A stretch of 64,000 nucleotides of DNA. Source: Streptomyces abyssalis (GTDB lineage Bacteria; Actinomycetota; Actinomycetes; Streptomycetales; Streptomycetaceae). A model generated the notes under the pieces. That model made no database searches, was not told the origin of the DNA, and worked only from the letters and a program-made list of their open reading frames with translations. Made by a program: the position numbers and the translations under genes. Location: the NCBI RefSeq assembly GCF_001751365.1, contig NZ_LJGT01000037.1, positions 1 through 64,000 of the forward strand, written 5' to 3'. Positions 7,089-29,100 of this stretch are shown in pieces (the stretch's first letter is position 1; every line of letters begins with the position of its first letter).

Positions 7089-7991
7089 GTGAGGATCAGG
7101 CGCATCACCCCCACCAAGGGCACCCCGAGACGCACCCGGCTGATCGCCGTCGCGTCCGGACTGGTCGCAGCGGCAGCGCTCACCACGCCTGCCGTCGCTG
7201 CCGACGCTCCGAGCCCCAGGTTCAGCGCCTCCCAGCTGGCGGCGGCGAGCGACGCGGTGCTCGGCGCCGATGTCGCCGGCACCGCGTGGCACGTCGACAA
7301 GAAGGCCGACACCCTCGTCGTCACGGCCGACAGCACCGTGTCCCGCGCCGAGATAGCCAAGATCAAGAAGGCGGCGGGCTCCGAGGCCGCCGCCGTGAAG
7401 ATCGAGCGCACCCCGGGCAAGATCCGCAAGCTGCTGCAGGGCGGCGACGCCATCTACGCCAGCAGCTGGCGCTGCTCGGCGGGCTTCAACGTCCGCAGCG
7501 GCAGCACGTACTACATCGTCACCGCCGGGCACTGCACCGACGGCGCGGGCACCTGGTACTCCAACTCCGGCCGTACGTCGGTGATCGGCCCCACCGCCGG
7601 GTCCAGTTTCCCGGTCAACGACTACGGCCTCGTCCGCTACAGCTCCTCCTCCGCCAGCCACCCGGGCACCGCGGGAGGCGCCGACATCACCAGTGCGGCC
7701 AACGCCACCGTCGGGATGTCCGTGACCCGGCACGGCAGCACGACTGGCACCCACAGCGGCACCGTCACCGGCCTGAACGCCACCGTGAACTACGGAGGCG
7801 GCGACGTCGTCTACGGCATGATCCGGACGAACGTGTGCGCGGAGCCCGGCGACAGCGGCGGCTCCCTGCGTTCGGGGAGCAGGGCGATCGGCCTGACCTC
7901 GGGCGGCAGCGGAAACTGCTCCTCGGGCGGTACGACGTTCTTCCAGCCCGTCGTGGAGGCGCTCAACGCCTATGGCGTCAGCGTGTACTGA
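7089..7991 (+). CDS. secreted S1-family serine protease, streptogrisin type
   Basis: A 300-residue preproprotease. It has an Arg/Lys-rich N-terminus, a hydrophobic signal segment (about residues 20-38, ending AVAADA), a pro-region of the alpha-lytic/streptogrisin type ([17 protein letters not shown]), and a mature chymotrypsin-like domain starting near [11 protein letters not shown]. The triad is visible: His148 in TAGHC, Asp178 in NDYGLV and Ser256 in GDSGGS. The pro-region acts as a folding chaperone in this family. The GTG at 7089 is preceded by AGGAGG with five bases between. Confidence 0.95.
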
Positions 7992-8276: not shown

Positions 8277-8909
8277 ATGAACAGATCCGCCTCCCGCGGC
8301 TTATTCCGTACGAGCCTCGCGTTGTTCGGTGCCGCGGTGGCATCGACCGCGCTGACCACCGCGGCGAGCGCGGCCGTGCCCGCGGCGGCGTCGCACGACG
8401 CTCACGCAGGGGCGCGTGCGGCCGCCGAACACGGCTGCGCCGTCGTCTGGTTCGATCTGGGCGAGACACTGGTGCACACCGCTGAGGACTCCAGCACCGG
8501 CTACATGCCCGGCGCGGCCGCCTATCTGCGCGAGCTGCGGGAACGGAACATCGACGTCGGCCTGATCACCAACGTGCCGTCCTCATGGGGCGAGACGGAC
8601 GCCGAGCGTGCCGCCGCTCTGAAGAAGGAGGTCGACGGGACATGGAAGGGCTCCGTCCCCTTCGCCTGGGAGGACTTCGGCGACCGGATACTCACCCCGC
8701 GCGCCGAGGCGGAGCGCAAGCCCGCGCCCGCGCTCTGGGAGCGCGCCAAGGGGGACGCGAACGGCTGCCGTCTCGTCTACGAGGCCGAGACCGCCGATGA
8801 GACCGATGTCGCCGCCTCGCTGGGCTACGTGGCCTACCAGGTCGGGCAGCCCTCCCGTCCCGCCTACCTCCCGGTGCGCGTGATCGAACGCCTGGCGCAC
8901 GACTCCTGA
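8277..8909 (+). CDS. secreted HAD-like protein
   Basis: A 210-residue protein with an N-terminal signal peptide (ALFGAAVASTALTTAASAA) and a HAD-like domain. Motif I reads WFDLGETLVHT, so the usual second Asp of DxD is replaced in position (D-L-G-E-T). Motif II is probably LITNVPSS. The motif III lysine is in ERKPAPALWERA, and an acidic ETADETDV sits where motif IV should be. An exported HAD protein is unusual, since most are cytoplasmic phosphatases. It may be a degenerate or non-phosphatase member. A perfect hairpin follows the gene. Confidence 0.65.
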   Translation: MNRSASRGLFRTSLALFGAAVASTALTTAASAAVPAAASHDAHAGARAAAEHGCAVVWFDLGETLVHTAEDSSTGYMPGAAAYLRELRERNIDVGLITNVPSSWGETDAERAAALKKEVDGTWKGSVPFAWEDFGDRILTPRAEAERKPAPALWERAKGDANGCRLVYEAETADETDVAASLGYVAYQVGQPSRPAYLPVRVIERLAHDS

Positions 8910-9004: not shown

Positions 9005-10504
9005 CTACGGGCCGGCCGTGGGGTGCGCGCCCGCTGCCGGGTGGCCCGCTCCGCCCGCGCCTGTCGTCCCCGGTGCAGGCGACGCCGCCGGCGCGGGACC
9101 CGTGTCCGCCGTCGCTGCCGGGACGGTCCGCCCGTCCGTCTCCCGGACGGCGCTCCCGTCCGCCGACCCGTCGCGACCCTGCCGCAGCATCCCGCTGCGC
9201 AGGACCAGTTGGAAGGCGCCGAGCAGCACGGCGGTCGCGAGCGCGCTGTGCCAGAGCAGGGCGTCCAGGTGTCCGGCGGAGAGATAGGCGCCGACGGCGA
9301 CGGCAGCCAGAGCGCACACCGCACGGTCGACGATCGACTCGACCGACAGCAGCGTCGCCCGCGGGGCGTGGGCGGGCACCGCGTCGTTGACCAGCTTGCG
9401 CTGGACCGGGTACGCGAAGCCGGTGGCTGCGGCGAACAGACACAGCAGGGCCACGGCCGTCCAGGGCCCGCCGAGGGTGATGCCCGCAAGGGTGCCCGCG
9501 AGGACGAGGCTGAGGACGGAGACCCAGGCAACCGGCGTCAGGCGGCGACCGAGCCACTGGGGGCGCGCGGATGCCACGGCCTCCGCCACCGTCATGGCGG
9601 CGAGCACCCCGCCGTGCGAGGACTCGCCGATGCCCTGGTCGAGCAGGATCGGCTGGAAGAGGTTGACCTGGCAGATGCGGGACAGCGTGAAGACGGCGAC
9701 GCCCTGCACCATCACCAGCGCCAGCCACGGCGAGGAGGCGACGCAACGCAGCGCGGTCTTCGCCTCGTTGAGGGAGGTGGCGCGCCCGCGGCGGCTCCGC
9801 GTCGCCCCTGATGCCTTCCCCTTCGGGTCCGGCGAGTTCCGGTCCGGCGAGTTCCGGCGCGGCGAGGCCGTACCGCCCCCGCCCGCGGAGGCGGCCAGCC
9901 GGGGCAGGGCCACGGCGCAGGCCAGGGAACCCGCCGCGCTCACGGCGCTCAGGACGTACGGGACGGAGTGGGCGAGGACCATCAGCGGCCCGACCAGCGG
10001 CCAGCACAGAACCTTCGCGGCCAGCCCGAGCGCCCGGGCCGTGCCCTCCGCCTTCAGGTAGTGCTCGTCGCACCGCTCGGCGCGCAGCCCGTCGTACAGG
10101 TAGGCGCTGGCAGCTCCCGAGGTGAGGGAGCGGCCGGCGGCGATGGCGAGGAAGTGGACGAGGAATCCGGTGTACGAGGCGCTGAACACCGGGGCGAGGT
10201 TCGCCGCCGTCATGACGACGGCGCCGGCCCGCAGGCAGTTGCGGGTGCCGATGCGGTCGGCGATCAGCCCGGTCGGGATCTCGAATAGGCAGAAGGCCAC
10301 GTAGTAGATGCTCTGGATGCCGAAGATCTGCCCGTCGGAGAGTCCGGCGTCCTTCTGGTACGCGTAGAACACCGGCATCCACCACAGCAGGTTGAACAGC
10401 AGCTGGAAGCCGTAGTTGAGGCGGATGATGCGGCGGGCGGTGGCAGTGAGGGGAGCGGCCGCCGTTCGCGCGGCGGAGCGCGGGCGCGGGAAGCGGGCGC
10501 TCAC
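9005..10504 (-). CDS. MFS transporter
   Basis: A 499-residue major-facilitator protein with about 12 predicted membrane helices. The TM2-TM3 loop region reads EIPTGLIADRIGTRN, close to the MFS motif-A consensus. A long hydrophilic central loop (about residues 205-245) contains a 15-bp tandem duplication. The C-terminal 50 residues are Ala/Pro/Gly-rich and hydrophilic. The GTG at 10502-10504 overlaps the stop of the upstream dikinase-like gene (GTGA), so it is the last gene of a three-gene operon. It probably exports the product of the two ATP-using enzymes before it. Confidence 0.88.
   Translation of the reverse strand: MSARFPRPRSAARTAAAPLTATARRIIRLNYGFQLLFNLLWWMPVFYAYQKDAGLSDGQIFGIQSIYYVAFCLFEIPTGLIADRIGTRNCLRAGAVVMTAANLAPVFSASYTGFLVHFLAIAAGRSLTSGAASAYLYDGLRAERCDEHYLKAEGTARALGLAAKVLCWPLVGPLMVLAHSVPYVLSAVSAAGSLACAVALPRLAASAGGGGTASPRRNSPDRNSPDPKGKASGATRSRRGRATSLNEAKTALRCVASSPWLALVMVQGVAVFTLSRICQVNLFQPILLDQGIGESSHGGVLAAMTVAEAVASARPQWLGRRLTPVAWVSVLSLVLAGTLAGITLGGPWTAVALLCLFAAATGFAYPVQRKLVNDAVPAHAPRATLLSVESIVDRAVCALAAVAVGAYLSAGHLDALLWHSALATAVLLGAFQLVLRSGMLRQGRDGSADGSAVRETDGRTVPAATADTGPAPAASPAPGTTGAGGAGHPAAGAHPTAGP
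9826..9855. repeat. 15-bp perfect tandem duplication in the MFS central loop
   Basis: TCCGGCGAGTTCCGG occurs twice head to tail. Read on the minus strand, it encodes a repeated RNSPD segment in the hydrophilic loop of the transporter. Confidence 0.8.
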
Positions 10505-12513
10505 AGCGCGTAGGGGCGGATCTGGACCAGGCGGAAGTCGCCCTGATCGGTCAGCAGCCACTCGATGTCCAGGGGGTCGTCCACCTCGGGTGCGCTGAAG
10601 TGGGACTGCAGCAGCCGCCCGGTCAGCGACAGGTCCGCGAGCCGGGCGCGTGTGCGGGAGGACAGCCCTTCGTTCCAGGAGCCGAGGGCGACCGTGCGGC
10701 CGCCGCCCTCGACGGTGTTGTAGAGGTACTGCTGCGGCAGGACCGTTCCCTCGACGACCTGTTCGGGCGAACCCGGCGAGCAGTTGAGATAGACGTTGCG
10801 GAAGTCCTCGCGCCGGGTCGGGTCGCAGGTCACCAGGACTCCGCCGAGCGCGGCAGGGACGTACGCCTGGACGATCACGCCCATGTACGTGTCGTCCAGG
10901 GAGATGCGCACCTGGTGGCGCAGCCGCACGCTGCGCGGCGAGAGCAGGGAGGCCCACACCTGCCGTACGGCGTCGGCGAGTTCGCCGGTGCCGCGGACGG
11001 TGGTGACGGAGTCGTAGACACCGGCAGCGGAGAAGCCCGGCAGATCCTCGGCGTTGGAGGACGAGCGCACCACGAGGCGGCCGCCGGCTGCGAGTTCGGC
11101 GGGGGAGGCCTGCGTGATCTCCCGGACGACGGACTCTGGCACGGGGGTCTGCCGGATCAGGTGCTGGATCTGCAGGCAGAGCGAGTCGAGCACGTCGCCG
11201 GCGTCGAGTTCGAGCGCCATCTTCAGCTTGCCTATGCCCTGCTGGAGCGCCGGGGAGGAGGTGAGGAAGCGGTGCTGGAGGGAGAACGGCAACGCGACGC
11301 CCTCGGGGGCCTCGACCGTGTCGGCCACGAAGGAGGCCGCGGCGGCGCGGAGTTCGGCGGCGGAGGGCGCGCGGAGGCCGAGCCGGGCGGCGAGGTGCCC
11401 GTACAGGTTCTCCCGCGGCGGGCGGGGGCGGCCGTGGAACGCGGTGAGATCGGCCGTGCGGCTGTCGAGGACGTGGTGCAGCTCTCCGAGGTTGGCCGCC
11501 TTGGTGCCGTAGCGGTCCCGGTCGGCGCTGCGCAGCCGGTGGAGGGAGAGTACGGGCGCGTCCTCCAGGAGCGGTGGTTCCAGCCGGATGCGCTGCTGGT
11601 GCCAGGCCGGGGCCCGCAGTTCGGGCGGGTGCTCCAGGCGTTCCAGGGTGATCTCGTCCTCGCGGACGCGGTAGCGGACCCAGGCGCCGTCGAGGCCGTC
11701 CTTCTCGACGAGCTGTCCGAGGTCGCGGACGATCGCGTTGGGGATGCCCCATCCGGAGGCGAGGACGTTGGTGTGGGACAGCGGGGTGATGGGCGCGGTG
11801 TTGACGAATCCGGCCACCCGCCGCACGTCGTCCGGCAGGCAGGGCATGGCGACGATGTCCGACCAGCCGAGCCCGCCGGCCGCCGCCTCGTACTCCTCCA
11901 CGGTACGGAAGCAGCGCAACCGGCCGGTGGCTTCCCCTGTGTTGAGCGCCGTCCGGGTCCTGGTGCCGAAGAGTTCGTGGCTGAGGATGCGCGGCACCTG
12001 CTGTTCGCTGACGGCGGCCAGCGCCTCCTCCTGGCTGTGGTTGGCGGGCTTGAGCAGCAGCGGCAGCCGGCCGTCGACGCGCTCCCGTACGAAGGCGTGG
12101 AAGAACTCCAGCAGCTCCGCGTGCATGGTGTCGGCCTCGGTCGTCTCCAGCACCAGGAAGGTGCGCTCGCGGCCGTCGGTGTCCTCGTCGGTGTGCAGGG
12201 AGAGCACGCCGAGCAGGAAGCGGCGCTCGGGGTCCATGTAGACGGAGGCGTTGAACTCGTCGAGGGCGGCGTCGAGTTCGGCGAGGTCCATGCCGAGGAC
12301 GGCGGTGGCGATGTAGTCGACGTGGAAGGGGTGCGCGGCCGTGTCGAGCAGGTGCCAGGTGGCCTCGGCACGGTCGACCACGACCTTGAGGTACGGGTGG
12401 CCGGCCAGGGTGCCCGACAGTGTGCGGAACAGCGGCAGCGAGAGGTTCTCGCCGACCACCGTGCGGTCGGTCGCGGGTTCCGGGGCGCCGGTGGAGAGCG
12501 GGGCGGTGCTCAC
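10501..12513 (-). CDS. PEP-synthase/dikinase-like protein, swivelling His domain before ATP domain
   Basis: A 670-residue protein. The middle segment TPLSHTNVLASGWGIPNAIV resembles the phospho-histidine swivelling domain of PEP-utilising enzymes. The later segments GTKAANLGEL, VRSSSNAEDLPGF and IEWLLT...LVQIRPYAL match the pyruvate-phosphate-dikinase N-terminal ATP-binding domain. The His domain therefore lies in front of the ATP domain, the order seen in glucan water dikinases and opposite to PPDK or PEP synthase. The family splits ATP to AMP and phosphate and passes a phosphate through the histidine to an acceptor. The acceptor here is unknown. It overlaps both neighbours through GTGA. Confidence 0.8.
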   Translation of the reverse strand: MSTAPLSTGAPEPATDRTVVGENLSLPLFRTLSGTLAGHPYLKVVVDRAEATWHLLDTAAHPFHVDYIATAVLGMDLAELDAALDEFNASVYMDPERRFLLGVLSLHTDEDTDGRERTFLVLETTEADTMHAELLEFFHAFVRERVDGRLPLLLKPANHSQEEALAAVSEQQVPRILSHELFGTRTRTALNTGEATGRLRCFRTVEEYEAAAGGLGWSDIVAMPCLPDDVRRVAGFVNTAPITPLSHTNVLASGWGIPNAIVRDLGQLVEKDGLDGAWVRYRVREDEITLERLEHPPELRAPAWHQQRIRLEPPLLEDAPVLSLHRLRSADRDRYGTKAANLGELHHVLDSRTADLTAFHGRPRPPRENLYGHLAARLGLRAPSAAELRAAAASFVADTVEAPEGVALPFSLQHRFLTSSPALQQGIGKLKMALELDAGDVLDSLCLQIQHLIRQTPVPESVVREITQASPAELAAGGRLVVRSSSNAEDLPGFSAAGVYDSVTTVRGTGELADAVRQVWASLLSPRSVRLRHQVRISLDDTYMGVIVQAYVPAALGGVLVTCDPTRREDFRNVYLNCSPGSPEQVVEGTVLPQQYLYNTVEGGGRTVALGSWNEGLSSRTRARLADLSLTGRLLQSHFSAPEVDDPLDIEWLLTDQGDFRLVQIRPYAL

Positions 12514-13967
12514 GCGGCGGCCCCCTCGGGCGCCGGCTGCGGCGCGGCGGGTACGGCGGGCGCGGACTGCGACGCGAGCGGGGCCTGCGGCGCGGGCGGG
12601 GGCTGCGATCCTGGCAGGGCGGGCGGCAGCACGGCGGGCAGGGCGTCCACCAGGGTCGTGAAGTCGCGGAGAACGGTGCGCGCATCGGTGGCGGAGAGCA
12701 GGCACAGCGCCGCCATCGTGTTCGCCCCGCCGACCGGGTCGTAGACCGGCACGGTGCTGCCGTCGTGCAGCGAACTCTCCGGAACCACGGACAGGTTGCT
12801 GCCCTCGCTCAGTGCGACTGCCTCCTTGACCACGGAAGAGTCCCAGACCCTGCGGTCCCGCCAGGCCTCGCCCCGGCCGTCCACCGCGAGGACGACGAGG
12901 GAACCCGCCGCTCCCCGCGCCTGCTCGGGGCCGAGAGTCCGCTCGGGCCAGACGACGGGGCGGCCCAGGAGGTGGTCCACGAGCATGCCGACGAGGTCGA
13001 GCCGGAAGACCTCCTCGATCTGCGGGACGGTCATCGCCCCGCCGAACCGGGCGGCCGTCTCGATGAGCCACATTTTCCCGCCGGCGCCGAGCTTGATCTC
13101 GGTGTGAGTGCCGCAATCGCGCAGGCCGAGGGCGTCCACGGCCTCGCGGGCCAGGGCCACGACGCGCTCCTGGAGGTCCGCGGGGAGCAACGCGGGGGTG
13201 ATGCCGGCCCGTTCGGTGAACGGTTCCACCGTGGGCATCCGGCCGCTGACGCAGACCGGGTGGAAGACGCCGTCGGCCACCACCCCTTCGACGCTGACGT
13301 AGTCGCCCCAGCCGGGCTCGTCGAACCACCCGGCGGTGGTGCCCGTGACGATCTGCTCGACCACGAAGTGCGCGTCCGCCTCGGCGACATGGAGTTCCGC
13401 GAAGCCCAACTGGGCGGATTCGGCCATCACTTCGCGCGAGCGCCGCCAGGCGGCGTCGGCCTCCTGCGGGGACCCGATGATCTGGTGGGCGGTGGAGCCC
13501 GCGCTCCAGGCCGACTTCAGCAGCATGGGGACGGGCAGGCCGGCGGCGGCCTCGTGGAGTTCCGCCTGCGTGGCGACAGGGCGGAACTCCGGCTGCGGCA
13601 GGCCTCGGCTGTGCCAGGTGTCGCGCATCTTCCGCTTGTCGCGGGCGAGCGCCGCGGCGCCTCCCGCCCCGGCGAGGCCGAGCACCTCGCATGCCTCGGC
13701 GACCGCCACGACCGCGTACTCGGAGAAGGTGAGCACCGCATCCGCGCCGACGGCCTCCGCCCGCGAGACGATCTGCGAGACGAGGTCGAACCGCTCCGTC
13801 CCGGCGGGAGTCACGACCGATGCGCAGAGAACCCGTGCGGACGCGTCGACAGCAGACGGAAGCGCGCTGAGCGCCAGCAGGTGCACTTCCGCTCTCGCCG
13901 CCGCCCGGGACAGGACGTGACCGAGCGGCGGACCACCCTTGGCGTGCACCAACAGCACTGTGCTCAC
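12510..13967 (-). CDS. ATP-grasp domain ligase
   Basis: A 485-residue protein. The N-terminal pre-ATP-grasp domain (residues about 1-100) is followed by an ATP-grasp fold: RDKRKMRDTWHSRGLPQPEF, VPMLLKSAWSAGST with its ATP-contacting lysine, and an acidic Mg site near LIETAARFGGAM. The last 45 residues form a Pro/Ala-rich tail. Relatives are carboxylate-amine/thiol ligases that pass through an acyl phosphate, including dipeptide-forming enzymes of secondary metabolism. The GTG at 13965-13967 has GGGAG about ten bases upstream. It is first in the operon with the dikinase-like and MFS genes. Substrates are unknown. Confidence 0.85.
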   Translation of the reverse strand: MSTVLLVHAKGGPPLGHVLSRAAARAEVHLLALSALPSAVDASARVLCASVVTPAGTERFDLVSQIVSRAEAVGADAVLTFSEYAVVAVAEACEVLGLAGAGGAAALARDKRKMRDTWHSRGLPQPEFRPVATQAELHEAAAGLPVPMLLKSAWSAGSTAHQIIGSPQEADAAWRRSREVMAESAQLGFAELHVAEADAHFVVEQIVTGTTAGWFDEPGWGDYVSVEGVVADGVFHPVCVSGRMPTVEPFTERAGITPALLPADLQERVVALAREAVDALGLRDCGTHTEIKLGAGGKMWLIETAARFGGAMTVPQIEEVFRLDLVGMLVDHLLGRPVVWPERTLGPEQARGAAGSLVVLAVDGRGEAWRDRRVWDSSVVKEAVALSEGSNLSVVPESSLHDGSTVPVYDPVGGANTMAALCLLSATDARTVLRDFTTLVDALPAVLPPALPGSQPPPAPQAPLASQSAPAVPAAPQPAPEGAAA

Positions 13968-14403
13968 TGAAGATCGTCTCCCATCGCTCGTCCTGTCGTC
14001 CTCGCCGGTGGCGGCTCGCTCCCGCGGCACGGTCGCCGGCCCGGTCCCGCTCTCGGACCCGGCCGGGCGCATGCCGACGCAACCCGCGTAGATTCACTGC
14101 GGGTAACGGGCCCCGCACACAAGGGAATCAGGCCGTCGGCCGCAGAAGTGCCGCAGCAGGCGGGTGCCGGTCAGGCAAACGCCAAAGTCACCGACATCGC
14201 CGGGTGGTCGTGAAGGCCTGGGCTCGGCCTGGCGCCGGCCGGGACTGACCGGGACTCGCCTGTGATCACATATGGCGCGCCTCACCGGGGATGCCCTCAC
14301 ACTTCGCACTCGGCCGGAAACCGGGCATGGGCGGGACCGCCACGGGATAGGCATCGCGGTGTCGACTCCCGCCGTCCGGCGGGAACATGAACGGAAGGCA
14401 GTC
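13968..14403. promoter_or_regulatory. divergent promoter region: ATP-grasp operon / PAS-LuxR gene
   Basis: About 436 bases lie between the leftward ATP-grasp operon and the rightward PAS-LuxR gene. No gene is supported. The LuxR-type protein is a natural candidate to bind here. No convincing palindrome was picked out by eye. Confidence 0.4.
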
Positions 14404-15693
14404 GTGGTTGATTCCGGTCTCGAAGCACTGCTGGAGCACCTCCCCGTGTCGTGGTGGGAGGCCGACGAGCAGTGGCGCCTCCTGGAGCGGGGCGGCGGCG
14501 CCTTCGCGGACCTGCGCACCGCGCAGCGCTTCCTCGACCGCATGCGGCAGGAGATGTCCTCGCCGGGGCACTCACTCCAGGACGGCCACTGTCTGGTCCA
14601 GTTCGACGGCCGTACCTTCGACGTGAAATGGCCGCTGGGCGAGAGCCGGGGCCAGGGCTGTACCCGCGGGCTCGCGGTGGAGTCCGGTGTGCGGCCCACG
14701 GGTGGCCGCCGGTACGCCGCCTTCGCGGAGTTCGCCGACTTCGCCCCGGCGGCGGCCTTCATCCGCGACGGCGACGGCTGCTACCTGTGGGCCAACCACT
14801 CCTACGCGCATCTCTACGGCACGACACCGGAACGGGTGGTCGGCAGTCGCATCGAGGACCTCGACGCCCCCTCCGACGCCGCGCAGTTCCGCGCCCTGGA
14901 CCAGGAGATCCTCAGCCGTGGCAAGCCGGTGCGCCACAACCTGAGCTATCACCGCTCGGACGGCAGCACGGGGCGGGCGGCCGGCCACCGCTTCCCCGTT
15001 GAAGAGGACGGCCAGACCTGCGTGGCCGGGATCTACGTCGACATCACCGAGCACACCCGCGCCATGAACCAGCGCCGGGAGGCCGAGGAGAACCTGCGGG
15101 CGCTGCGCGACCACAGCGGTCTGCCCTGCGCGCTGCTCTCGGCCAACGGCCGTATCGAGCAGGCGGGTACGGCGACCGCCGAACTGTTCCGGACACGCCT
15201 GTCCGAGCTCGTCGGCCGCCGCGCACACACCCTGCTCGCCACCACGCCCGACCTGCGCCAACTGCGCCTCGCATGGGAGGCGTTGATAACCCGCCGCATA
15301 AGACGGGTGGAGACGTCCGCCGTACTTCTCGATGCCCGGGGGCGCCAGCGCCGTGCGCAGCTCCACCTGGCCGCGGTGAGCCGGTCCTCCGGCCGGGCCG
15401 CGCACGTGTGGGCCGTCGTCACCCACCAGAGCCTCGCCCACGAGGCCCACCCCCCGCTCACCGCCGCGCAGATCCGGATACTGTCCCTCCTCGCGGAAGG
15501 CAGCACCAACGGCGAGATCGCCACCTCGCTCAAGCTGTCCCGGCAGGCAGTCGACTACCACCTCAGCCGGCTCCGCGACCTCCTGGGAGCCGCGACGAGA
15601 CCAGCCCTCGTCGCCCGCGCCTACGTCCTCGGCATTCTCGCCCCCCGCGCCTGGCCCCCGCGTTCGGCCGCGACCACCCGGCCCCTCGGCTGA
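14404..15693 (+). CDS. PAS-domain LuxR-type transcriptional regulator
   Basis: A 429-residue regulator. An N-terminal region of unknown fold is followed by a PAS domain (about residues 103-220, with AAAFIRDGDGCYLWANHSYA and ending VAGIYVDITEHTRA). A second weaker PAS-like domain follows (about 235-340), and then a LuxR-type helix-turn-helix (about 350-405, LTAAQIRILSLLAEGSTNGE through LSRQAVDYHLSRL). The PAS domains probably sense a small molecule. The GTG at 14404 has GGAAGG five bases upstream. An earlier in-frame ATG at 14272 is less convincing. Its position between the ATP-grasp operon and the megasynthase makes it a candidate pathway regulator. Confidence 0.85.
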   Translation: MVDSGLEALLEHLPVSWWEADEQWRLLERGGGAFADLRTAQRFLDRMRQEMSSPGHSLQDGHCLVQFDGRTFDVKWPLGESRGQGCTRGLAVESGVRPTGGRRYAAFAEFADFAPAAAFIRDGDGCYLWANHSYAHLYGTTPERVVGSRIEDLDAPSDAAQFRALDQEILSRGKPVRHNLSYHRSDGSTGRAAGHRFPVEEDGQTCVAGIYVDITEHTRAMNQRREAEENLRALRDHSGLPCALLSANGRIEQAGTATAELFRTRLSELVGRRAHTLLATTPDLRQLRLAWEALITRRIRRVETSAVLLDARGRQRRAQLHLAAVSRSSGRAAHVWAVVTHQSLAHEAHPPLTAAQIRILSLLAEGSTNGEIATSLKLSRQAVDYHLSRLRDLLGAATRPALVARAYVLGILAPRAWPPRSAATTRPLG

Positions 15694-17063: not shown

Positions 17064-17083
17064 ATCCCCTCGGCCAAGGGGAT
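17064..17083. promoter_or_regulatory. 20-bp near-palindrome in front of the megasynthase
   Basis: ATCCCCT (17064-17070) and AGGGGAT (17077-17083) are perfectly complementary around a CGGCCA core that is itself nearly symmetric (18 of 20 positions pair). It ends about 40 bases before the preferred start at 17125. It could be a repressor operator or a hairpin that masks the translation start. Confidence 0.5.
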
Positions 17084-17124
17084 TGATCGTCCATGAGGGA
17101 CATGGGGAGCGAAGCGGGGGAATC

Positions 17125-20100
17125 TTGACGACAGGACCGAACGGCGAGACGACGCTCCTGCAGGTGTTGCTGGACGCCGCCGCCGACGCCCCCGGCCAGG
17201 TGCTGGTGCATGTGGGGGGAGACGGCGGGGAACGGGCTGTCACCTTCGCGCAGTTGCGGGACGATGCGCTGCGCGTCGCGGGCGGATACCTGGCATCCGG
17301 CGTGGCACCCGGTACCTGCGTGCCGCTGCTCGCCGACCGTGGCGACGACTTCCAGGCGCTGTTCTGGGGCGCCCTGGCAGCTGGCGTCGTCCCGGTGCCG
17401 CTCGCCCCCGACGTGCGACGGTTGCTGCCGGTGTGGGAACTGCTCGGCCGTCCTCCCGTGGCCGTCGACGGGGCGAGCGAATCCCTGCTGGAGGAACTGT
17501 CCGGCGGTGTACGGGCATTGAGGCTGGCGGAGCTTCGGCAGGGGCATCCGCCGCCTCGGCTGCCGGACGTCTCCTCCGATTCGCTCGCCCTTCTTCAGTT
17601 CTCGTCGGGCAGCACCGGAGCGCCCAAGGGCGTGAGGCTGACACATGGCGCGGTCCTGGCCAATCTGGAGCAGATCCGCCTCGCCGCGGCCATCACGTCC
17701 GGCGACGTGGTGGTGAGCTGGATGCCGTACTTCCACGACATGGGGCTCATCGGCACACATCTGGCCCCGCTCGCCGCACGCATCAAGCAGGTGAGGCTGG
17801 AGCCGTTGTCGTTCGCGAAACGGCCCGCACTGTGGCTGGAGGTCGCGGAACGGCACAGGGCGACGCTGCTGTCGGCGGCGAACTTCGCTCTGGCCCTGGC
17901 CGTGCGGCGCATTCCCGACGAGGGGTTCGCCCGGTTCGACCTGGCCGCGGTGCGGCTGCTGCTGGTGGGCGCGGAGCCGATCGCTCCGGCCGTGTGGCGG
18001 CGGTTCCTGCGCAAGGCGGAACGTTCCGGTCTCGACGCGTCGGCGCCACAGCCGGTGTACGGCCTCGCGGAGGCCACGTTGGCGGTCACGTTCCCGCCGC
18101 CGGACGAGGTGGCTGTGCCGCTGGTCCTCGACCGGGCCGCACTCAGCCGCGGCCGCGCGGTGGACACCGTCCGGGGCCCGTCCGCCGTGGAGCTCATGGA
18201 CGTCGGCGTGCCGGTGCCCGGATGCGAGGTCCGCATCGTGGACGACGCGGACCGCCCGCTGGAGGACGGACGGGTGGGACATCTGCAGGTGCGCGGGCCC
18301 CAGATCGCGCAGGGCTACCACAACGCACCCGAGGCGAGCGCCGGTGCGTTCGCCGGCGGCTGGCTGCGCACAGGCGACCTGGGGTTCCTGCGCGACGGGC
18401 GGCTGTGCGTGACGGGCCGCCACAAGGACGTGCTGTTCGTCGGCGGCCGCACCTTCCACGCCCCCGACCTGGAGGAAGTCGCGGTCGGCACCTCCGGCCT
18501 GCCGTCCTCCGTGGCGGCGGTCGTGGGCTCCACCGACCCTGAGGAGGGCGGGGAGCGAGTCGTCGTCTTCGTGCAGTGGGCGAGACCGCCCCGCGAGGCG
18601 GCCGATGTGCTGGAGCGGGTGGCAGGGCGGGTGCGGCAGGCTCTGGCCCACGACGACGTACGGGTGCTGCCGCTGCCGGCGGGTGCCTTCCCGCGGACGA
18701 CGAGCGGCAAGCTGCGTCGGCGTGCGATGCGCGAGCGCTTCGAAGCGGGGGCCTACGCCGCGGTCGGGGAACGCTGGGCCCGCCGTGCGCCCGGCACCGC
18801 ACCGACGGCGGACTCCCCGGTGGCGCCCGGCGGGTCGGTGACGCCTGCTCAGCCGGTGGCGTCCGACGGGTCGGTGACGGCGCGCTCGCGGGAAGAGGCC
18901 GAGCAGACCGTTGCCGGACTCTGGGCGCGGGTGCTGGGCCGCTCCCGGGACTCCATCGGGCCGCATGACCGGTTCCTGGCCATCGGCGGCTCGTCGCTGA
19001 AAGCCATGGAGGTGCTCGCCGCGCTGGAGGACACCTTCGGCGTCACCGTTCCACCGGCAGCGATGCGCGATCACGACACCGTCGCCGCGCTCACCGAACA
19101 CGTTCTCGCGTCCCGGCGCGGCGGGCCGCCGGAGCCCGCCGCCCGCTCCGTCACCCCGGGCGGGGACGGCGACCCGGCGCCGCTTGCGGTCGTCTCCATG
19201 GCCTGCCGCTTTCCCGGTGCGGACTCTCCGGAGGCCTTCTGGGACCTGCTCGCGGCCGGCCACGACGCCGTCGGCACCGTACCGGCGTCCAGGTGGAGTA
19301 CCCCTCCGGAGGCCGCTGCCCGCTGGGGTGCCTTCCTCGACGATCCGGCGGGCTTCGACGCCGCGTACTTCGGCATCGACGAGCAGGAGGCGACGGCGAC
19401 GGACCCGCAGGCCCGGATCTTCCTGGAGCTGGCCCACGAAGCCCTGGAACGGGCGGGCTATGCGGGCGTACGGCGGTCGGGCCGCCGTATCGGCGTCTTC
19501 GCCGCGACAGGGGAGAGCGGCTACCGCGAACTGCTGGCGCAGGCTCACGGGCCGGGATGCGAGCTGCCTCCCGGCGCGCTGGTCGGCAACCTCCCCAACC
19601 TCGTCGCAGCCCGCGTGGCGCAGAGCCTGGACCTGACCGGACCTGCCCTCGCCGTCGACACCGCCTGTTCTTCCGCCCTGGTGGCACTGCATCTCGCGCG
19701 CCGCAGCCTCCAGTCCGGTGAGTGCGACGTCGCCGTCGTCGGCGGCGTCAACCTGACGCTGGCACCGACCGGCCACCGGCTGCTGGAGGCAGCGGGTGCC
19801 CTGTCGCCGACCGGGCGCTGCCGTCCCTTCAGTGCCGCCGCCGACGGTTTCGTCCCCGGGGAGGGCGGCGCGGCGATCGTCCTGGCCCGGCTGGAAGACG
19901 CGCACCGCGCCGACGACCCGGTCCTGGCCCTGCTGCGCGGCACCGCGGTGAACAACGACGGACGCTCACTGAGCCTCATGGCTCCCAACGCTCTGACACA
20001 GCGGGAGATCATCGTCCAGGCCTACCGGGACGCGGGCGTCGACCCGGGCACGGTGTCCTACATCGAGGCGCACGGCACCGGAACCGCCCTCGGTGACCCC

Positions 20101-23100
20101 GTCGAACTGCGCTCCCTGGCCCATGCGTTCGCACCGCGCAGCGACGGGCAGCCCCGACTGCTCGGCTCGGTGAAGAGCAACCTCGGCCATCTGCTCAACG
20201 CCGCCGCCATGCCGGGCCTGGTGAAGGTGGTCCTCGCCCTGGGCCACCGGCAGTTGCCCGCCTCGCTGCACCATGAGCCGCTCGCCTCCCTCCCCGACGG
20301 CGCGGCCGGCGCCTTCGAGGTGGTCACCGAGCACCGTGAATGGACGGCGTCCGGCCCGCTTGCGGCCGGGATCAACGCGTTCGGATTCGGCGGCACCAAC
20401 GCGCACGCCGTTCTCGAACAGGCGCCCGCGCGCCCGGCGTCCGGCTCGCGCGGGCGGAAAGAGGCCCAGGCCGGGGCCGGTTCGCGGGACGAAGACGGGC
20501 CGTACCTGCTGGCGCTGTCCGCGCGCAGCGCCGCCGCGCTGGGCGCGGCGTCCCGCGACCTCGCGGCTCACCTTCGCACCCATCCGGCCCTCGACGAGCG
20601 CGACGTGTGCGCCACCGTCAGCACTGCCCGCGACCACGGCCGCCACCGCCTGGCGTTGGCGGGCCACGGCCGAGGCGACCTGGCCGAACGCCTGGAGGCA
20701 GGCCCGGCCCCCGTGGTGGCGCGCTCCCGGCCTCGGCTGGTGTTCCTCCTGCCGGGTCAGGGCACCGTGCGTCCCGGGGCGGGCCGGGACCTGTACCGGT
20801 CGGCTCCGGAGTTCCGCCGTGTCATGGAGGAGGCCTCCGAACTCACCGGTCCGGTCGGCGGACGGACTCTCGCCGAGTGGTGCCTGGAGCCCGGCATCCC
20901 GCGAGCCGGCCTTGCCCGTACGGAGGTCGCGCAGCCGCTGCTCGTCGCGTTCGGCGTCGCGCTCGCCCGTCAGCTGAACGCATGGGGCCTGAGCGCCGAT
21001 GCGGTCGCCGGTCACAGCGTGGGCGAGATCAGCGCTGCGTGCGTCGCCGGTTCGCTCACCCTTGCCGAGGCCGTGGGGTTCGCCGCCGAGCGTGGCAGGC
21101 TGATGCGCGACCTGGCCGCACCGGGCGCGATGGCTGCCGTGGCCGGCGGCGAGGAGACCGTCGCCACTGTTCTGGCCGGCTCGGGCGACGCGCTGTGCGT
21201 CGCCGCGGTCAACGCCCCCGGCCAGGTGGTGATCGCCGGGACCGCCGACGCCGTGGACCGGGCCGTCGCACAGCTGGACGCCGAGGGGGTCCCGGCCCGC
21301 GGACTCCACGTCTCACACGGCTTCCACTCGCCGGCGATGCGCCCGGTGGCGGACCCGGTCGCCGCCGCGGCAGCGGCACTCACTCCCCGCCCGTCGTCGG
21401 TGCCGCTGCTGAGCACGCTGAACGCGCGGTGGCAGCCGTCCCTGGACCCGGCGCACTGGCGTGAGCACACCTTGCGACCGGTGCGATTCGCCGACGCCGT
21501 CGAACGCCTGCTGGACGACGGATACGACACCTTCGTCGAGCTCGGCCCCGGCACCACGCTGCCAGGGCCGGTCCGCGCCGTGGCCGCCCAACGCGACCCG
21601 TCTGCCGAGGTGTTCGCCCTGGCGGCCCCGGGCACGGACTCCGACGCGGGACACGCTCTTCTGACGTCCGTCGGGCAACTGTGGGCGCGCGGTGCGGAAG
21701 TGGACCACGCGGCGTTGGCCGGCGGGCGGGCCCGGGTCCCCGTTCCGGCATACCCCTTCCAGCGCCGCCGGTACTGGCCCGGACGCGCACCATCGTCACT
21801 GCTGCACCGCCTCACCTGGCGCGATACGTCCACGACGGCGGGCGGCGGCGCCCCGTCTGCCGTCCGGCTGGCCGGGCCGGACTCGGAACTGGCCCGGGCG
21901 TTCGCACATCGGCTGGAGAACCGGGGCACCGTCGTCCGGCGGGAGTCCGACGCCGACGGGCCGGACGCGTCCCCGCAGATCACCGTGCTGATCACCGGGC
22001 CGGCCGCCGACTGCGAAACCGTCGCGGATCTCGACACCGCGACGGGCGCCGCGCTGTCCACCGTGCCGGGCCTGTGCACGCCGCCGGCCGGAAACGGTGC
22101 GCGGCTCGTGGTCGTCACGGAGGACGTCCACGCCACCGGCACGGCCCCCGAACGGCTGCGCCCCGCCCAGGCCCTGATGACGGGTCTGACGCTTGCGCTC
22201 CCCGAGGAATATCCGGGCCGCACCGCCTACAGCGTCGACCTGTCCTCGTACGACTCCCTGGACGTCCGACTCGACGCCCTCGAACAGGAGTTGCTCCGGC
22301 AGCACGCGCAGGCGAGCCCGGAGGTGGTCGCGTGGCGCGGGGGCCGACGCCTGGCCCGTGTGCCCACGCCGGTGGGGACCGGCGCACCGTCCTCCCCGTC
22401 TCTGCCGCCTTTGCCGCCGCTGCCGCCCGGCGGGACGTATCTGATCACGGGTGGTACGGGCGGGGTCGGCGCCGAGCTTGCCCGCCATCTGGCGGGGCGC
22501 GGCCGGCCGGTGCTGGTGCTGGTCGGGCGTTCTGCCGGCCCGCCGGGACGCCTGATGGCCGAACTCCGGGCAATGGGGGCCATGGTGGAGTACCGCGCGG
22601 CGGACGTGGCGGTCGAAGCCGATGTCGAGGTTCTGGCATCGGAGTTGCCGCCCCTGGACGGGGTGTTCCACGCCGCCGGTGTGCTGCGGCCCGGCACGCT
22701 GCGGGCCAAGTCGCAACAGGAGATGGCCGATGTCCTCGCGGCCAAGGTGCGCGGCAGCCACCTGCTGTCCCGGACGCTGTGGCGACACGGGCACCGTCCG
22801 GCGGTGTGTGTCGCCTTCTCGTCCGTCGCCTCGGTGCTGCCCGGGCTTGCGGGCGCGATCGGCGACTACGCCGCGGCCAACGCCTTTCTCGACTCGTTCG
22901 CCGCCTCCGAGCGAGCTGCCGGCAGGCCCTGGCAGTCGCTGAACTTCGCCGCGTTCGCCTCGACGGGGCTCGCTGCCGGACAGCGGACGCGGACGTCCGT
23001 CGCGGCAGGCGGTCTCCCGCCGCTGACTCCCGGCACGGGGCTCGCGGCGCTGCACGAGGCATGCGGCATCGATGCCGCCCAACTGGTCGTGGCGGAGCTG

Positions 23101-26100
23101 GACGACGCGTCTCGCAGCGCGGCGGCCACGAGCGCGGCGAACTCCGAGGCGGAAGCGAATGCCGGGGCGGAAGCGAACACCGAGGCACCGGTAGGGGCAG
23201 GGACAGCGGCCGTGGCTGGAACCGCCTTGCCCGCGACCACCGTTGGGCGGGCACCCGCATCGCAGCCCACGCCTGCCACGGGCGCGGCCGGTGCCGCCTC
23301 GCACGGGACACACGAGGCGCACGAGACGCCCGAGTACGAGACATACGAGGCGCACGAGGCGCACGAGATCACGGAGGTGGTGAGCCGGCTCCTGGCCGAG
23401 GCCCTGCACCGCGCCCCGGCCGACATCGCCGACGACGAGCCGTTCCTCACCGTGGGACTGGACTCACTCACCGCCGTGGACCTCGTCAGACGGCTGGAGT
23501 CGGAACTGGGCCGTCCCCTGCCGCCCACGCTGTTCTTCGAGTACCGGACGATCGGCGAGCTGGCCGACCATCTGAGCGCCGGTTCCCCCGGTGCGCAGCT
23601 TCCCGCGGGAGAGCGGCGACAACTCGCTGCCGGGAGGGGCACGTTCGACGACCGAGCCGCGCTGCCCCTCACTCCCGTGCAGCTGGCCTTCCACGCGGGC
23701 GGCAGACTGCACCCCGGCGTCACCGCCTACGCCTTCGTGCGTCTGACCGTGAACGGCCCTCTCGACACCGGGTTGCTGGGCCGCGCCTTCGCCGTCCTGG
23801 CAGCCCGCCACCCGATGTTGCGCCTCAGGATCGAACCCGGCAGCGGCTCGCCACCCGTGCAGAACGCGGCACCGGCCGAGCCGGAGGACTCTGTGCCGTC
23901 CTGGTACGAAGTCCGTGACACCGACGGCTCGTTGGCGGATCTGGAGGAAGGGCTGTGCAACCGCCCGTTCGACCTCGCCGTCGAGGCACCCGTGCGCGCG
24001 GTCCTGGTGCGTGAGGGCGCGGAACACGCCCATCTGCTGCTGGTACTGCACCACGCGGCCGCGGACGGATTCAGCCTGAACGTCCTCGGCGAGGAGCTGT
24101 GGTCGGTCTACACCGCCCTTGCCGACGGCCGCTCACCGCAACTGCCGCCGCTGGAGGCCGACTTCGCCGACTACGCGGCCGCCGTCGAGGTCGAGCGTTC
24201 CTCACCGGAGTTCGCCGGGGACCTGCGGTACTGGCGTGAGAAGTTCACCGAGCACCCCGGGCTCCAGGGAGACCTGCCGTACGACGGCGCCCCGGACGCG
24301 CCGCACACCGCGCCGCTCACGGCCCACCAGGTGCCCACCGACCCGGAGTTCACCGACGCATTGCGCAAGTGCGCCGCCGCGCACGGCGTCTCACTCTTCC
24401 ACCTGCTGCTGGCCGCGTATGCACGCTGCCTGTCGCGGTGGAGCGGCCGGCGCGACGTCACGGTCAACGTCGCCCGCGCCCGCCGCGATCTGCGGCTGGC
24501 GGGTATCGGCCGGCTGATCGGTCCGATCGCGGACACCCTGCCGCTCCTCGCCTCGGTCGACGTGGACGAGCCGGTGCCGGACCTTGCTCGGCGGCTGCAC
24601 GGGATCTGGCTGGATGCCGAGCGGCACGCCCGTCCATCGAGCATCGACGTCTCGCGGCTGCCGCCCGCCACGGGCAACAGATCCCGCACGCCATCACGCA
24701 CGCCGACCCCGGCGGGATTCAGTTTCGCCCGCTTCCCCGCCACGGTGGACCCCCGCTGCCCGGTCACGGTGCGCCCGGCCGCGGCACGCAGCGCCTCCGC
24801 CGCCACGCGCCTGGGACTGCTGTGCTGGGAGAGCGACCAGGCTCTGCACTTCTCCTGGAACTTCCCGTCCCGGCTGTTCACCCGTACCACCGTCGAGCGC
24901 CTTGCGCGCGAACACCTCGCGGAACTCGCCGGACTCGTCGCACCTGCTCCACCCGGAGCTCCGGCAGAGACGGAGCAGCAGGAAGTACGGGCGGGGGCGG
25001 TGGCACGGGCGGAGGCAGAGGTACAGACACAGGCAGAAGTACACGCAGAGACACCGGTCCCCGTGCCTGCGACCGAGCGGGGCGGAGTCGTCGAGCGCCT
25101 GTGCGCGCAGTTCCTGGCGGCCCCCGATCACGTGGCCGTCGACACGGGTGGGGCAACCATGACCTACCGGGAACTCGACCGCGCCTCGTCCGTACTCGCG
25201 GACAGGCTGCACGCCCGGGGTGTCGCAGCCGGGGACCTCGTCGGACTGCTCACCGCACCGGGTGCCGACACCGTCGCCGGCGTCGTCGGCATCCTCCGCG
25301 CGGGCGCGGGGTGGGTGCCGATGGATCCCTCCCACCCCGCCGGACGCCTGGCCGACCAGCTCCGGCGGTCCACGGCCCGCACCGTGGTGTGCCACGCCGC
25401 CTCCCGCGCAGTGGCCGACGCACTCGACGACGTGACGAGGATCGCCGTCGACGACCCGTCGCCGGTCCCGGTCCCGGCCCCTTCGGCCGGTCATGTACCC
25501 GACGGTCCCGTACCCGACGGTCCCGTACCCCCCGATCCCGGCGCTCCCGCCTACGTCATCTTCACCTCGGGCTCCACCGGCCGCTCCAAGGCCGTGCCGA
25601 TCACGCACCGGGCGATGGCGAACTACCTGGACTGGGCACTGGACACTTTCGGCTATCGCCGCGGCGACAGGCTCGTCCAGACCGCCTCCGTCTGCTTCGA
25701 CGCCTCCGTGCGGCAGCTGCTGGCGCCGCTGCTGGCCGGGGCCACCGTTCACACCCTGCCCCCGGACCTGGTGCGCGACCCCGAGGCGCTGCTGGAGCGA
25801 CTCGTGAGGGACCGGATCACCGTGTGGAGTTCGGTGCCGACCCTGTGGGAGCGACTGCTGAGAGCCGCCGAGACCCGCGTACGGCGGGGTGCGCCCCCGC
25901 CTGACCTGTCCGCGTTGCGCTGGATCCATGTGGGCGGCGAGGCGCTGTCCCCCGGACATGTGCGTCGCTGGTACGACCTGTTCGGGTCCGGCCACCGCAT
26001 CACCAACCTGTACGGGCCGACCGAGGCCACCATCAACGCGACCTGCCACATCATCGACGCCCGTCCCGCCGACGACGTGCGGCGGCTGCCGATCGGCCGT

Positions 26101-29100
26101 CCCGTCGCCGGCACCGAGGTGGCGGTCCTGTCCCCGGACGGGCGTCGCTGCGGCACCGGTGAACCGGGTGAACTGCTCATCAGCGGAACGGGACTGACGC
26201 CGGGTTACCTCGGCGATCCCGGGCTCACCGCAGCCGCGTTCACCGAGCGGGACGGGAAGCGCTGGTACCGCAGCGGCGACCGGGTCAGCCAACGGCCCGA
26301 CGGCGAGCTGGAGTTCCTGGGCCGCCTCGACGACCAGGTGAAGATCCGTGGCCACCGGGTGGAACCGGGGGAGATCGAGGCCGTACTCCGCACCCACCCC
26401 GGCGTCGTCCAGTCCGCCGTACTGCACCGGGACGGCCGGCTGACCGCGTTCGTGGAGCCCCTGCCCGGTGTTCCCGCGCCCGGTCCCGTACAACTCCGTG
26501 CCCATCTGCGCGAGGCCTTGCCCGACTTCATGGTCCCGGGCCGGTTCCGCTTCCTCGACGCGCTGCCCCTCACCGGCACCGGAAAGATCGACCGCCGGCG
26601 GCTCGATGCCTCGCCCGTCGGCGAGCGGTGCACACGCGCGGCGGACGACGAACCCGACGAGGCCGCCTACGGGACTCCGCCCGCCACACCGACCGAGCGC
26701 ACTCTCGCGCGCATCTGGTCGGAGGTTCTGGGGGGCGTTGCCGTCGGCCGTGAAGACGACTTCTTCGAGCTGGGCGGAGATTCCATCCTCGTCCTGGACG
26801 TGTTCGCACGCCTGGAGAAGGCGAACGGACTGCGACGGCACGACGCCGTGCTGCCCAGACCGACGGTCGTCTACGAACACAGCACCCTCGCCGCCCTCGC
26901 CTCCGCCATCGACGAGACCGTAAGGGACGGTGCCGTCCTCGACGAGGCCGCCAGGGACGCCACCGATGTCACCGATGTCACCGCGCTTGACGCCGGGGAC
27001 CGAAGTGCCCTTCCGTTCCCCCTCACTCCCACCCAGCGGGGCTTTCTGATCGCTGAGGCCGTCGCGCCCGGATCCGGTTCGGCGTGGCTGGCCCGGCTGC
27101 GCCTGCGCGGTCCGCTGCGGCCCGACGTCTTTCAGCGCGCGGTCGATGTCCTGGTCGAGCGTCATCCCATGCTGCGCACGGTGTTTCCCGCCGGCACCCG
27201 GCCCCCGGTGCAGCAGGTACTGCCGCCCGCGCTCCGGCTGCCCGTCGAGTTCGAGACGCGGGCCTCGCCCGGCCTGGTCGACGAACGCGTATCCGCCGAA
27301 CGCCGCCGCCGGTTCGAGCCCTGGGCCTGGCCGCTGCTGCGCCTGCGGGTGATGAGCCTGGGACCCGAGGACCACGTGCTGATCGCCCACGCCCATCACC
27401 TCATCGGCGACGGCTACAGCGTGGCCCTGTTCGGGAGGGAACTGCTCACCGTCCACGACCGGCTCGCCCGTGGCGAACCGGCAGGACTGCCGCCGTTGCG
27501 GGGCACCTTCCGCGACTACGTCGACTTCCTCCAGGAGCCGGCCGTGGACCGGCGTCCGGACCCGGTGAAGGCCGCGCGGACGGCACGTCACCAGCGCCCC
27601 TACCGCCGGCCCGACCTGCGCCAGGGCAAGGCAGGGGCCACCGTCTCCCCGGATGAGGGCTGTGCCGGGTTCAGGTCGGAGGGGTTCACCCTCGATACCG
27701 GGCTGACGGACGCACTGCTGCGGTCCACCACCGTCCGCGCGGCGCCGTACGCCCCTGTCCTGACCGCCTACTACCGGGCTCTGGCCGGCCTCACCGGGCA
27801 GCAGGACCTCGTTCTCGGGCTCGCGGTCACCGGACGCGACCATCCCCTGCCAGATATCAGCCGCCAGTTCGGACCGTTCGCCGCCGTGGTGTCGCTGCGC
27901 CCCGCCGTCGCCGAGCCCGATGCCTCAAGTGGCGCCTCCCGCCCGTCCTTCGGTGACGACCTGCGACGGATCACCGACGAGGTCGTGGCCGCACGGACGC
28001 GCGGCACCGACGGGATGTTGTCCGACGGGCCGCCGATGGCCACTCAGTTCCTCTTCAGCCACCTGGACTTCTCCGCTCTGGGCCCTCCCGCAGGCGAAAC
28101 CCTGACTCTCGACTGGGAGGACCAGGACACGGAGCTCGCCGCGCCGCCGGCGGGGAACGACGTGTTCCTGGCTGCCCGGCCGGTACGGGACGGACTGCGC
28201 CTGACCCTGCGCGCATCAGCCGCCGCACTTGCGCCGGAGACCTTCACCGCGCTCAGCCGCGCCTTGCGGGACGAGGTCGCCCGGGCCGCCGCACCCCATT
28301 CGGCCCCGGGTCCGGGTCCGGCCCCGGGTCCGGGTCCGGGTCCGGCCCCCGCCCCGCCGTCGGCCCTCGCCCCGGCGCCGCCCGGCAGCGCACGCTCGTC
28401 CGTCACGGATGCGGCGCTCGTCGGTTACCTGCCGGCTCCCGGGCAGCTGGCCGCGCTCGCCGGGATGCCGGCGGCGGCCCTCCCCCGCGAGCAGCTGCGT
28501 GCCCTGCTCTTCCCGGACGGAGGTCCACGCCTGCTGGAGGAGATCACCACGCCGCTCGGACGCTCGGGCTTCGTCGCGCTGCCCCTGTTCGCCGACGAGC
28601 TGGCCCCCGGAAGCACGCTCAGCGCCCACACCGCCCGCGCCGTGACCCACGCGGCGTCCCTCGGCGCGCGCTGCGTCTCGATGGCGGGCATGATCCCGGC
28701 GCTCACCGGCTACGGATTCGAGGTCCTGCGCGAGGAGACAGTGACGACTGCGGTCACCACAGGCCATGCGGCCACCGCCGTGTCGGTGGTCGGGACCGTC
28801 CAGAGCGCGCTCGCCGCAACCGGACGAGACCTGGGGGAACTTGCTGTGGCCGTCGTCGGACTCGGCTCGATCGGCACCGCCTCCCTCAACCTGCTGCTCG
28901 ACCGCGCCCCGCGCCCGCCTGCCCGGCTGCTGCTGTGCGACGTCGCCGGCAGCGCGCCCCGTCTGCGTACTCTCGCGGCGGAGTTGCACAGGAGCGGCCT
29001 CGCGCGGTCGGTGGCGACTGCCGAGTCCGGCCAGGTCCTGCCCGCCGCGGTGTACGAAGCCGACCTGATCGTCACCGCCGTCAGCGGCGGCACGGCCGTC

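Follow-up and report, generated by a model that had tools for sequence, protein, structure and literature searches.

To our knowledge, living systems seldom contain N–P bonds, and only a small number of enzymes are known to form them. The N–P-bond-forming kinase of the phosphoramidon/talopeptin (tal) pathway, TalE, was reportedly described by Baulig et al. 2019. In glucan, water dikinase, the His domain stands before the ATP domain. Other authors have tied PPDK-like proteins to the N–P bond of phaseolotoxin (PhtL) and to that of agrocin 84 (AgnD1/AgnD2) (PMC4530439). On pAgK84, the gene of the PEP-utilizers (His-domain) protein precedes and overlaps that of the PPDK_N ATP-grasp protein. FMPI, or phosphophenylalanylarginine, is a phosphoramidate metalloprotease inhibitor of Streptomyces rishiriensis, according to a review (PMC6429109).

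The window analysed here, a 64,000-nt stretch at the beginning of a Streptomyces contig of 952 kb, carries on its minus strand, from 13967 down to 9005, the genes of a ligase, a dikinase-like protein and an MFS protein in this order. All three start with GTG, and both junctions are 4-nt GTGA stop/start overlaps, which bears out the three-gene operon with double overlaps of the preliminary description, whose coordinates were correct. The features of this cassette and its surroundings are as follows.

14272..15693, plus strand: divergent PAS-LuxR regulator (Pfam PAS_4, E 7e-19; GerE, E 1e-8); its true start is perhaps further in
14171..14186, minus strand: putative operator TTTGGCGTTTGCCTGA (family consensus TCAGGCAWWTGCCTGA)
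12510..13967, minus strand: BacD-like ATP-grasp L-amino-acid ligase, 485 aa (PDB phmmer match to BacD, E 2e-51; NCBIfam BacD, 178.5 bits; invariant residues)
10501..12513, minus strand: permuted phosphohistidine dikinase, 670 aa (Pfam PPDK_N, E 5e-38; structure model; invariant residues)
9005..10504, minus strand: MFS transporter, 499 aa, presumed exporter (Pfam MFS_1, E 5.5e-15; with the other two genes in 80/80 loci)
8277..8909, plus strand: convergent HAD-like hydrolase (motif residues; Pfam Hydrolase, E 6.6e-4, below the cut-off)

The cassette resembles the phaseolotoxin system in that a PPDK-like protein for the postulated N–P bond (PhtL) is accompanied by L-amino-acid ligases (PhtQ/PhtU), and the agrocin 84 system in that the His-then-ATP order of the two genes on pAgK84 is the order within the cassette dikinase, whereas both of these systems belong to larger clusters and differ in the N-terminal region. 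AgnD2 (ATP) matches the dikinase with E 2.4e-7, as expected of any PPDK_N protein, and AgnD1 (His) resembles it at the His motif only (E 0.16), the N-terminal domain being unlike AgnD1.

Conservation and spread of the cassette

A genome scan yielded 194 relatives of the dikinase, and the best 80, all within the genus or family, were used as loci. The ligase, dikinase and MFS genes stand together in 80/80 of these Streptomyces loci (the best 80 of 194), and the PAS-LuxR regulator adjoins them in 79/80, as the neighbourhood comparison proposed in the preliminary description showed. The 4-nt overlap (ATGA or GTGA) recurs between ligase and dikinase genes in 78/80 named relatives and between dikinase and MFS genes in 72/80, and the trio is under purifying selection (dN/dS 0.18–0.34; 15 gene pairs, five loci). 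Eight loci have 58–59% dikinase identity, and seven of them carry the regulator on the opposite side of the operon; the operon of locus L052 runs dikinase-MFS-ligase with the 4-nt overlaps kept. The association thus survives rearrangement. The outer neighbours differ between loci; beyond trio and regulator, the conserved gene content is limited to the HAD gene, present in 31 of these best 80 loci (out of 194), and a methyltransferase-like gene specific to one clade. Two copies of the cassette were found on large plasmids.

Among 199 Streptomyces genomes, some of which also supplied loci to the best 80, the full-length dikinase is present in 26 (13%, or about 1 in 7, the genome of the window counted). 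The whole-protein profile detected it in 3/396 phylum genomes at E 1e-35, and the N-terminal domain was found in 57/391 order genomes (1/10 genera) and 7/394 class genomes (1/137 genera), in overlapping draws with few candidates per genome scored; in the genome samples scanned, this domain occurs in Streptomyces only. The gene set is common in Streptomyces and hidden by the standard labels ATP-grasp, PEP/pyruvate-binding and MFS. No paper on it was found in the open-licence literature, which does not prove that none exists.

Several neighbouring genes deserve mention. The methyltransferase-like gene, which by eye is SAM-methyltransferase-like, lies directly 3' of the MFS gene (L089, 13367-14188; L091, 13430-14239; a related gene in L124), is confined to one clade (S. 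sioyaensis, S. lydicus and S. nigrescens) and could provide a tailoring step. In the window, a 4149-aa ORF that adjoins the cassette (17083-29532, plus strand) appears by eye to be a hybrid PKS/NRPS with adenylating, ketosynthase, acyltransferase and condensation-like parts; it was excluded from the cassette because matches occur in just 4/80 loci, at 30–42% identity. The gene at 7257-7991 (plus strand) encodes a secreted protease of the S1 type, whose prodomain is of the alpha-lytic type (Pfam).

The permuted dikinase and the BacD-like ligase

The second protein of the operon is an intact swivelling phosphohistidine dikinase with a permuted order, consisting of an N-terminal domain (aa 1-184), a His swivel domain (aa 185-294, with H247) and an ATP-grasp domain (aa 317-670), in which Pfam recognised PPDK_N alone (aa 398-668, E 5e-38). 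In a structure model built from 44 sequences (mean pLDDT 75.8), aa 317-670 matched the ATP domain of rifampin phosphotransferase (RPH) with a VIA Z of 24.2 (280 residues, 3.2 A) and aa 185-294 matched its His domain with a VIA Z of 10.9 (98 residues, 2.8 A), confirming the earlier proposal that the phospho-His domain stands ahead of the ATP domain. The His in TPLSHTN, for which a structure prediction had been suggested as a check, is H247; it lies in this RPH-like His domain and aligns with the catalytic His of 10 Streptomyces RPH-like proteins in a profile alignment, the comparison of the His-domain profiles giving a global hhalign E of 1.8e-4 (one comparison). H247, K338, R483, S502, E651 and Q664 are invariant across 44 dikinase sequences. 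By-eye mapping equates Q664 with RPH Gln309, whose role in RPH we assume, and K338, R483, S502 and E651 with RPH K22, R117, T136 and E297. The roles of Lys22, Arg117, Thr136 and Glu297 in the ATP site of RPH are described in PMC4844700. With its PPDK_N ATP-grasp and a swivelling His domain that carries an invariant His, the protein belongs to the PEP-synthase/PPDK superfamily.

The N-terminal 184 residues, presumed to be the acceptor domain, were modelled alone with a pLDDT of 87.8. They gave no trustworthy match among solved folds; the best was polyphosphate kinase at Z 4.9, and kinship with polyphosphate kinase or cofilin is not claimed, this value being under the trust level. Domain order was further compared in 30 other Streptomyces PPDK_N proteins (10 + 20), 28 of which have the ATP domain first and then a remainder of at least 158 aa. 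His-first order was seen in none of the 30, the motif search finding no motif in 13 of the later 20. In the protein of L195, little sequence follows the ATP domain, and no His motif is seen. That of L193, a short PPDK_N protein in a 435-aa frame, has the His motif directly after the ATP domain, with little room for an acceptor domain.

RPH shares with the cassette dikinase the ATP-grasp and swivelling His domains and the same ATP-site residues, but its order is ATP-grasp, rifampin-binding, His. The likeness to glucan, water dikinases drawn in the preliminary description lies in domain order only, and the starch-binding domain of glucan/phosphoglucan water dikinases was not matched in Pfam at E 1; the earlier statement that the protein has no recognised glucan-binding or PEP-binding domain held at the same threshold. 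It could still be asked whether the dikinase is an RPH, glucan dikinase or PEP synthase in other guise, serving resistance, a storage polymer or PEP metabolism, given that its ATP-grasp is homologous to those of RPH and PEP synthase. We regard this as very improbable, since every specific NCBIfam model scored far under its cut-off, with 108.7 bits vs 999 for RPH (NF041857; domain order reversed) and 90.3 bits vs 739.75 for PEP synthase (TIGR01418, PEP_synth; its C-terminal PEP/pyruvate-binding barrel unseen in Pfam), no carbohydrate-binding or PEP-binding domain was matched at E 1 in Pfam, and the coupling to a peptide ligase is fixed. Moreover, Pfam, NCBIfam and PADLOC did not reveal any known system of resistance or of polymer storage in the module, and the PADLOC models of known anti-phage defence gave 0 matches for the ligase, dikinase, MFS and HAD proteins, with weak matches in the helix-turn-helix region of the regulator.

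The phosphate might also serve for activation only: like the prodigiosin ligases PigC/RedH, the dikinase would then prime a carboxyl or an amide for another condensation, and the exported product would be free of phosphate. PigC and RedH are PPDK-like, and the NCBIfam search of the ATP domain matched them weakly (E 7e-19 and 3e-19, respectively). However, their domain order, judged from profile positions, differs, no acyl-binding domain was recognised, and the co-occurring HAD phosphatase would be left without an obvious task, so that this course appears quite improbable to us.

The first protein is, by sequence, a BacD-like L-amino-acid ligase, as its nearest relative in PDB (phmmer, E 2e-51) is the L-amino-acid ligase BacD. 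Its ATP-grasp contains E290, E303 and R307, which are invariant, as is S155, in 65 ligase sequences (the window and 64 of the 80 loci, the remainder being dropped for stops or short matches), and which place it among the BacD-like ATP-grasp L-amino-acid ligases; we take E290 and E303 to be the metal-binding Glu residues and R307 to be the substrate Arg. While the cassette ligase thus resembles BacD as an ATP-grasp dipeptide ligase with conserved metal-site glutamates, it scores far under the cut-off of the BacD equivalog NF053745 (alanine-anticapsin ligase; 178.5 bits vs 850), and two positions aligned to substrate-pocket residues are changed, H to G/S/T and W to A/V, the roles of both positions in BacD being presumed here. 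The pocket tryptophan of BacD limits the first residue of the dipeptide. Since the cassette ligases have A or V at this position, where the W of BacD 3wnz is A in the 3wo1 sequence, a bulky first residue such as Phe is plausible. A ligase paralogue with 47% identity (L139, 12001-13302 of NZ_CP109562) lies in a different plasmid cluster beside two further ATP-grasp genes, an MFS gene, a cysteine synthase gene and a TauD-like dioxygenase gene, possibly another peptide pathway.

The PAS-LuxR regulator and the HAD hydrolase

The PAS-LuxR regulator was found in 24/26 cassette-positive vs 0/173 cassette-negative Streptomyces genomes. Between its gene and the operon lies a near-palindrome with the consensus TCAGGCAWWTGCCTGA, present with at most 3 mismatches in 73/81 upstream regions. 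When no more than 1 mismatch is allowed, 11/17 genomes have a single site, which in each of them is the one at the cassette operon; it was not found in the other six, and the reversed control pattern gave 0 matches in all 17; as the consensus occurs once per genome in those 11, no further regulon member is seen in these genomes. A scan of the window's own genome at up to 2 mismatches returned 14 matches vs 27 for the reversed control, and therefore only the zero-mismatch site counts there. The regulator has both the PAS domain and the LuxR helix-turn-helix of the PimM type, and the operator is like that of PAS-LuxR proteins in its palindromic form but different in its letters, the 16-bp palindrome CTVGGGAWWTCCCBAG being the consensus given in PMC9774167. 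The regulator may bind the palindrome upstream of the cassette operon. Another perfect palindrome upstream of the window operon, TGTGATCACA, was rejected as the operator, the same or a similar pattern occurring in only 7/81 regions.

The HAD-like protein has an N-terminal stretch that by eye resembles a signal peptide, and its HAD motif residues D60, T64, T98, K148, E171 and E175 each show at least 97% conservation across 32 sequences. They suggest a putative phosphatase, the Pfam Hydrolase match (E 6.6e-4, 20.6 bits) lying under its cut-off of 26.4 and the NCBIfam matches likewise under theirs. In the 199 Streptomyces genomes, a homologue (E 1e-15) occurs in 19/26 cassette genomes vs 2/173 others (Fisher p 8e-19, and 8e-9 without the 11 genomes with an adjacent copy, both uncorrected for kinship), and part of this co-occurrence may be due to shared ancestry. 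In eight of the 19, the gene is at a distant locus; such unlinked genes have no operator within 3 mismatches and no neighbours in common. In the HAD tree, few of whose branches are well supported, they fall on several branches, and some of them group with copies that adjoin the cassette. Two genomes (G058 and G188; L225 and L226) have a secreted HAD homologue without the cassette.

These observations bear on a reading in which the dipeptide itself is the active compound and the dikinase phosphorylates it (on O or N) for safety. The MFS protein would then export an inactive compound, to be unmasked outside the cell by the secreted HAD phosphatase. This reading would account for the co-occurrence, including the unlinked genes scattered over the HAD tree; in addition, RPH, which among functional analogues is nearest by sequence, phosphorylates an antibiotic and so inactivates it (PMC4844700). 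Nevertheless, we hold this masking to be rather unlikely, since a HAD homologue is undetected at E 1e-15 in 7/26 cassette genomes, the HAD function is read from motifs with a sub-cut-off Pfam match, and the co-occurrence is perhaps in part a matter of kinship.

The proposed N-phosphorylated dipeptide and FMPI

The BacD-type ligase, the permuted dikinase, the MFS protein and the regulator with its operator support the earlier view of a small biosynthesis-and-export module for peptide-bond or phosphate-transfer chemistry. As no other enzyme is conserved, the pathway should start from common amino acids and lead to a dipeptide that carries phosphate, or to something near it. We therefore propose, with about an even chance of being right, that the cassette turns ordinary amino acids into an N-phosphorylated dipeptide, a phosphoramidate, and exports it. 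The PAS-LuxR protein would act on the upstream palindrome to switch on the one operon, and the BacD-type ligase would join two amino acids, the first probably bulky, via an acyl-phosphate. The dikinase would be phosphorylated at His247 from ATP, giving AMP and Pi, and its His domain would swing to the N-terminal domain, where the dipeptide would sit, and pass the phosphate to the amino end of the dipeptide. The MFS protein would carry the product out of the cell, where the secreted HAD hydrolase, if present, would remove the phosphate. Here we infer the chemistry and the sequence of its steps, phosphorylation on N and not on O, what the N-terminal domain does, the direction of export and the action of the HAD protein.

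The phosphoramidon/talopeptin product is likewise an N-phosphorylated dipeptide metalloprotease inhibitor of Streptomyces, but bears a deoxysugar, whereas the cassette has no conserved glycosyltransferase gene. FMPI (phospho-Phe-Arg) would need just a dipeptide ligase, an N-phosphotransferase and export, and in the genome of S. rishiriensis NBRC 13407 (L071) the cassette is complete and intact and is preceded by a perfect operator, the HAD gene not being adjacent to it. No genes for FMPI are known to us. The proposed pathway would yield FMPI in S. rishiriensis, and the identity of the cassette with the FMPI genes of this species is a tentative assignment that we find somewhat doubtful. The species match is suggestive only, FMPI being from strain NK-122 and the cassette read in NBRC 13407, and since 26/199 Streptomyces genomes have the cassette, such a match alone is about a 1-in-7 coincidence.

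New with respect to the preliminary description are the regulator, the putative operator, the secreted HAD hydrolase that co-occurs with the cassette, and a possible pathway, to N-phospho-dipeptides such as FMPI. In its fullest form, which we put forward as a rather speculative picture and unlikely to hold in every part, about one in seven Streptomyces would possess a minimal three-enzyme natural-product pathway. Its permuted dikinase, confined to the genus and equipped with an acceptor domain of new fold, would N-phosphorylate dipeptides (FMPI and congeners); after their export, these would be switched outside the cell by a secreted HAD phosphatase inherited along with the cassette. If the proposed pathway is correct, the cassette would supply the genes for an inhibitor reported in 1982 and a small system in which to study a permuted swivelling dikinase whose acceptor domain has no recognised fold, and the link to a secreted hydrolase would make an extracellular phosphate switch directly testable.
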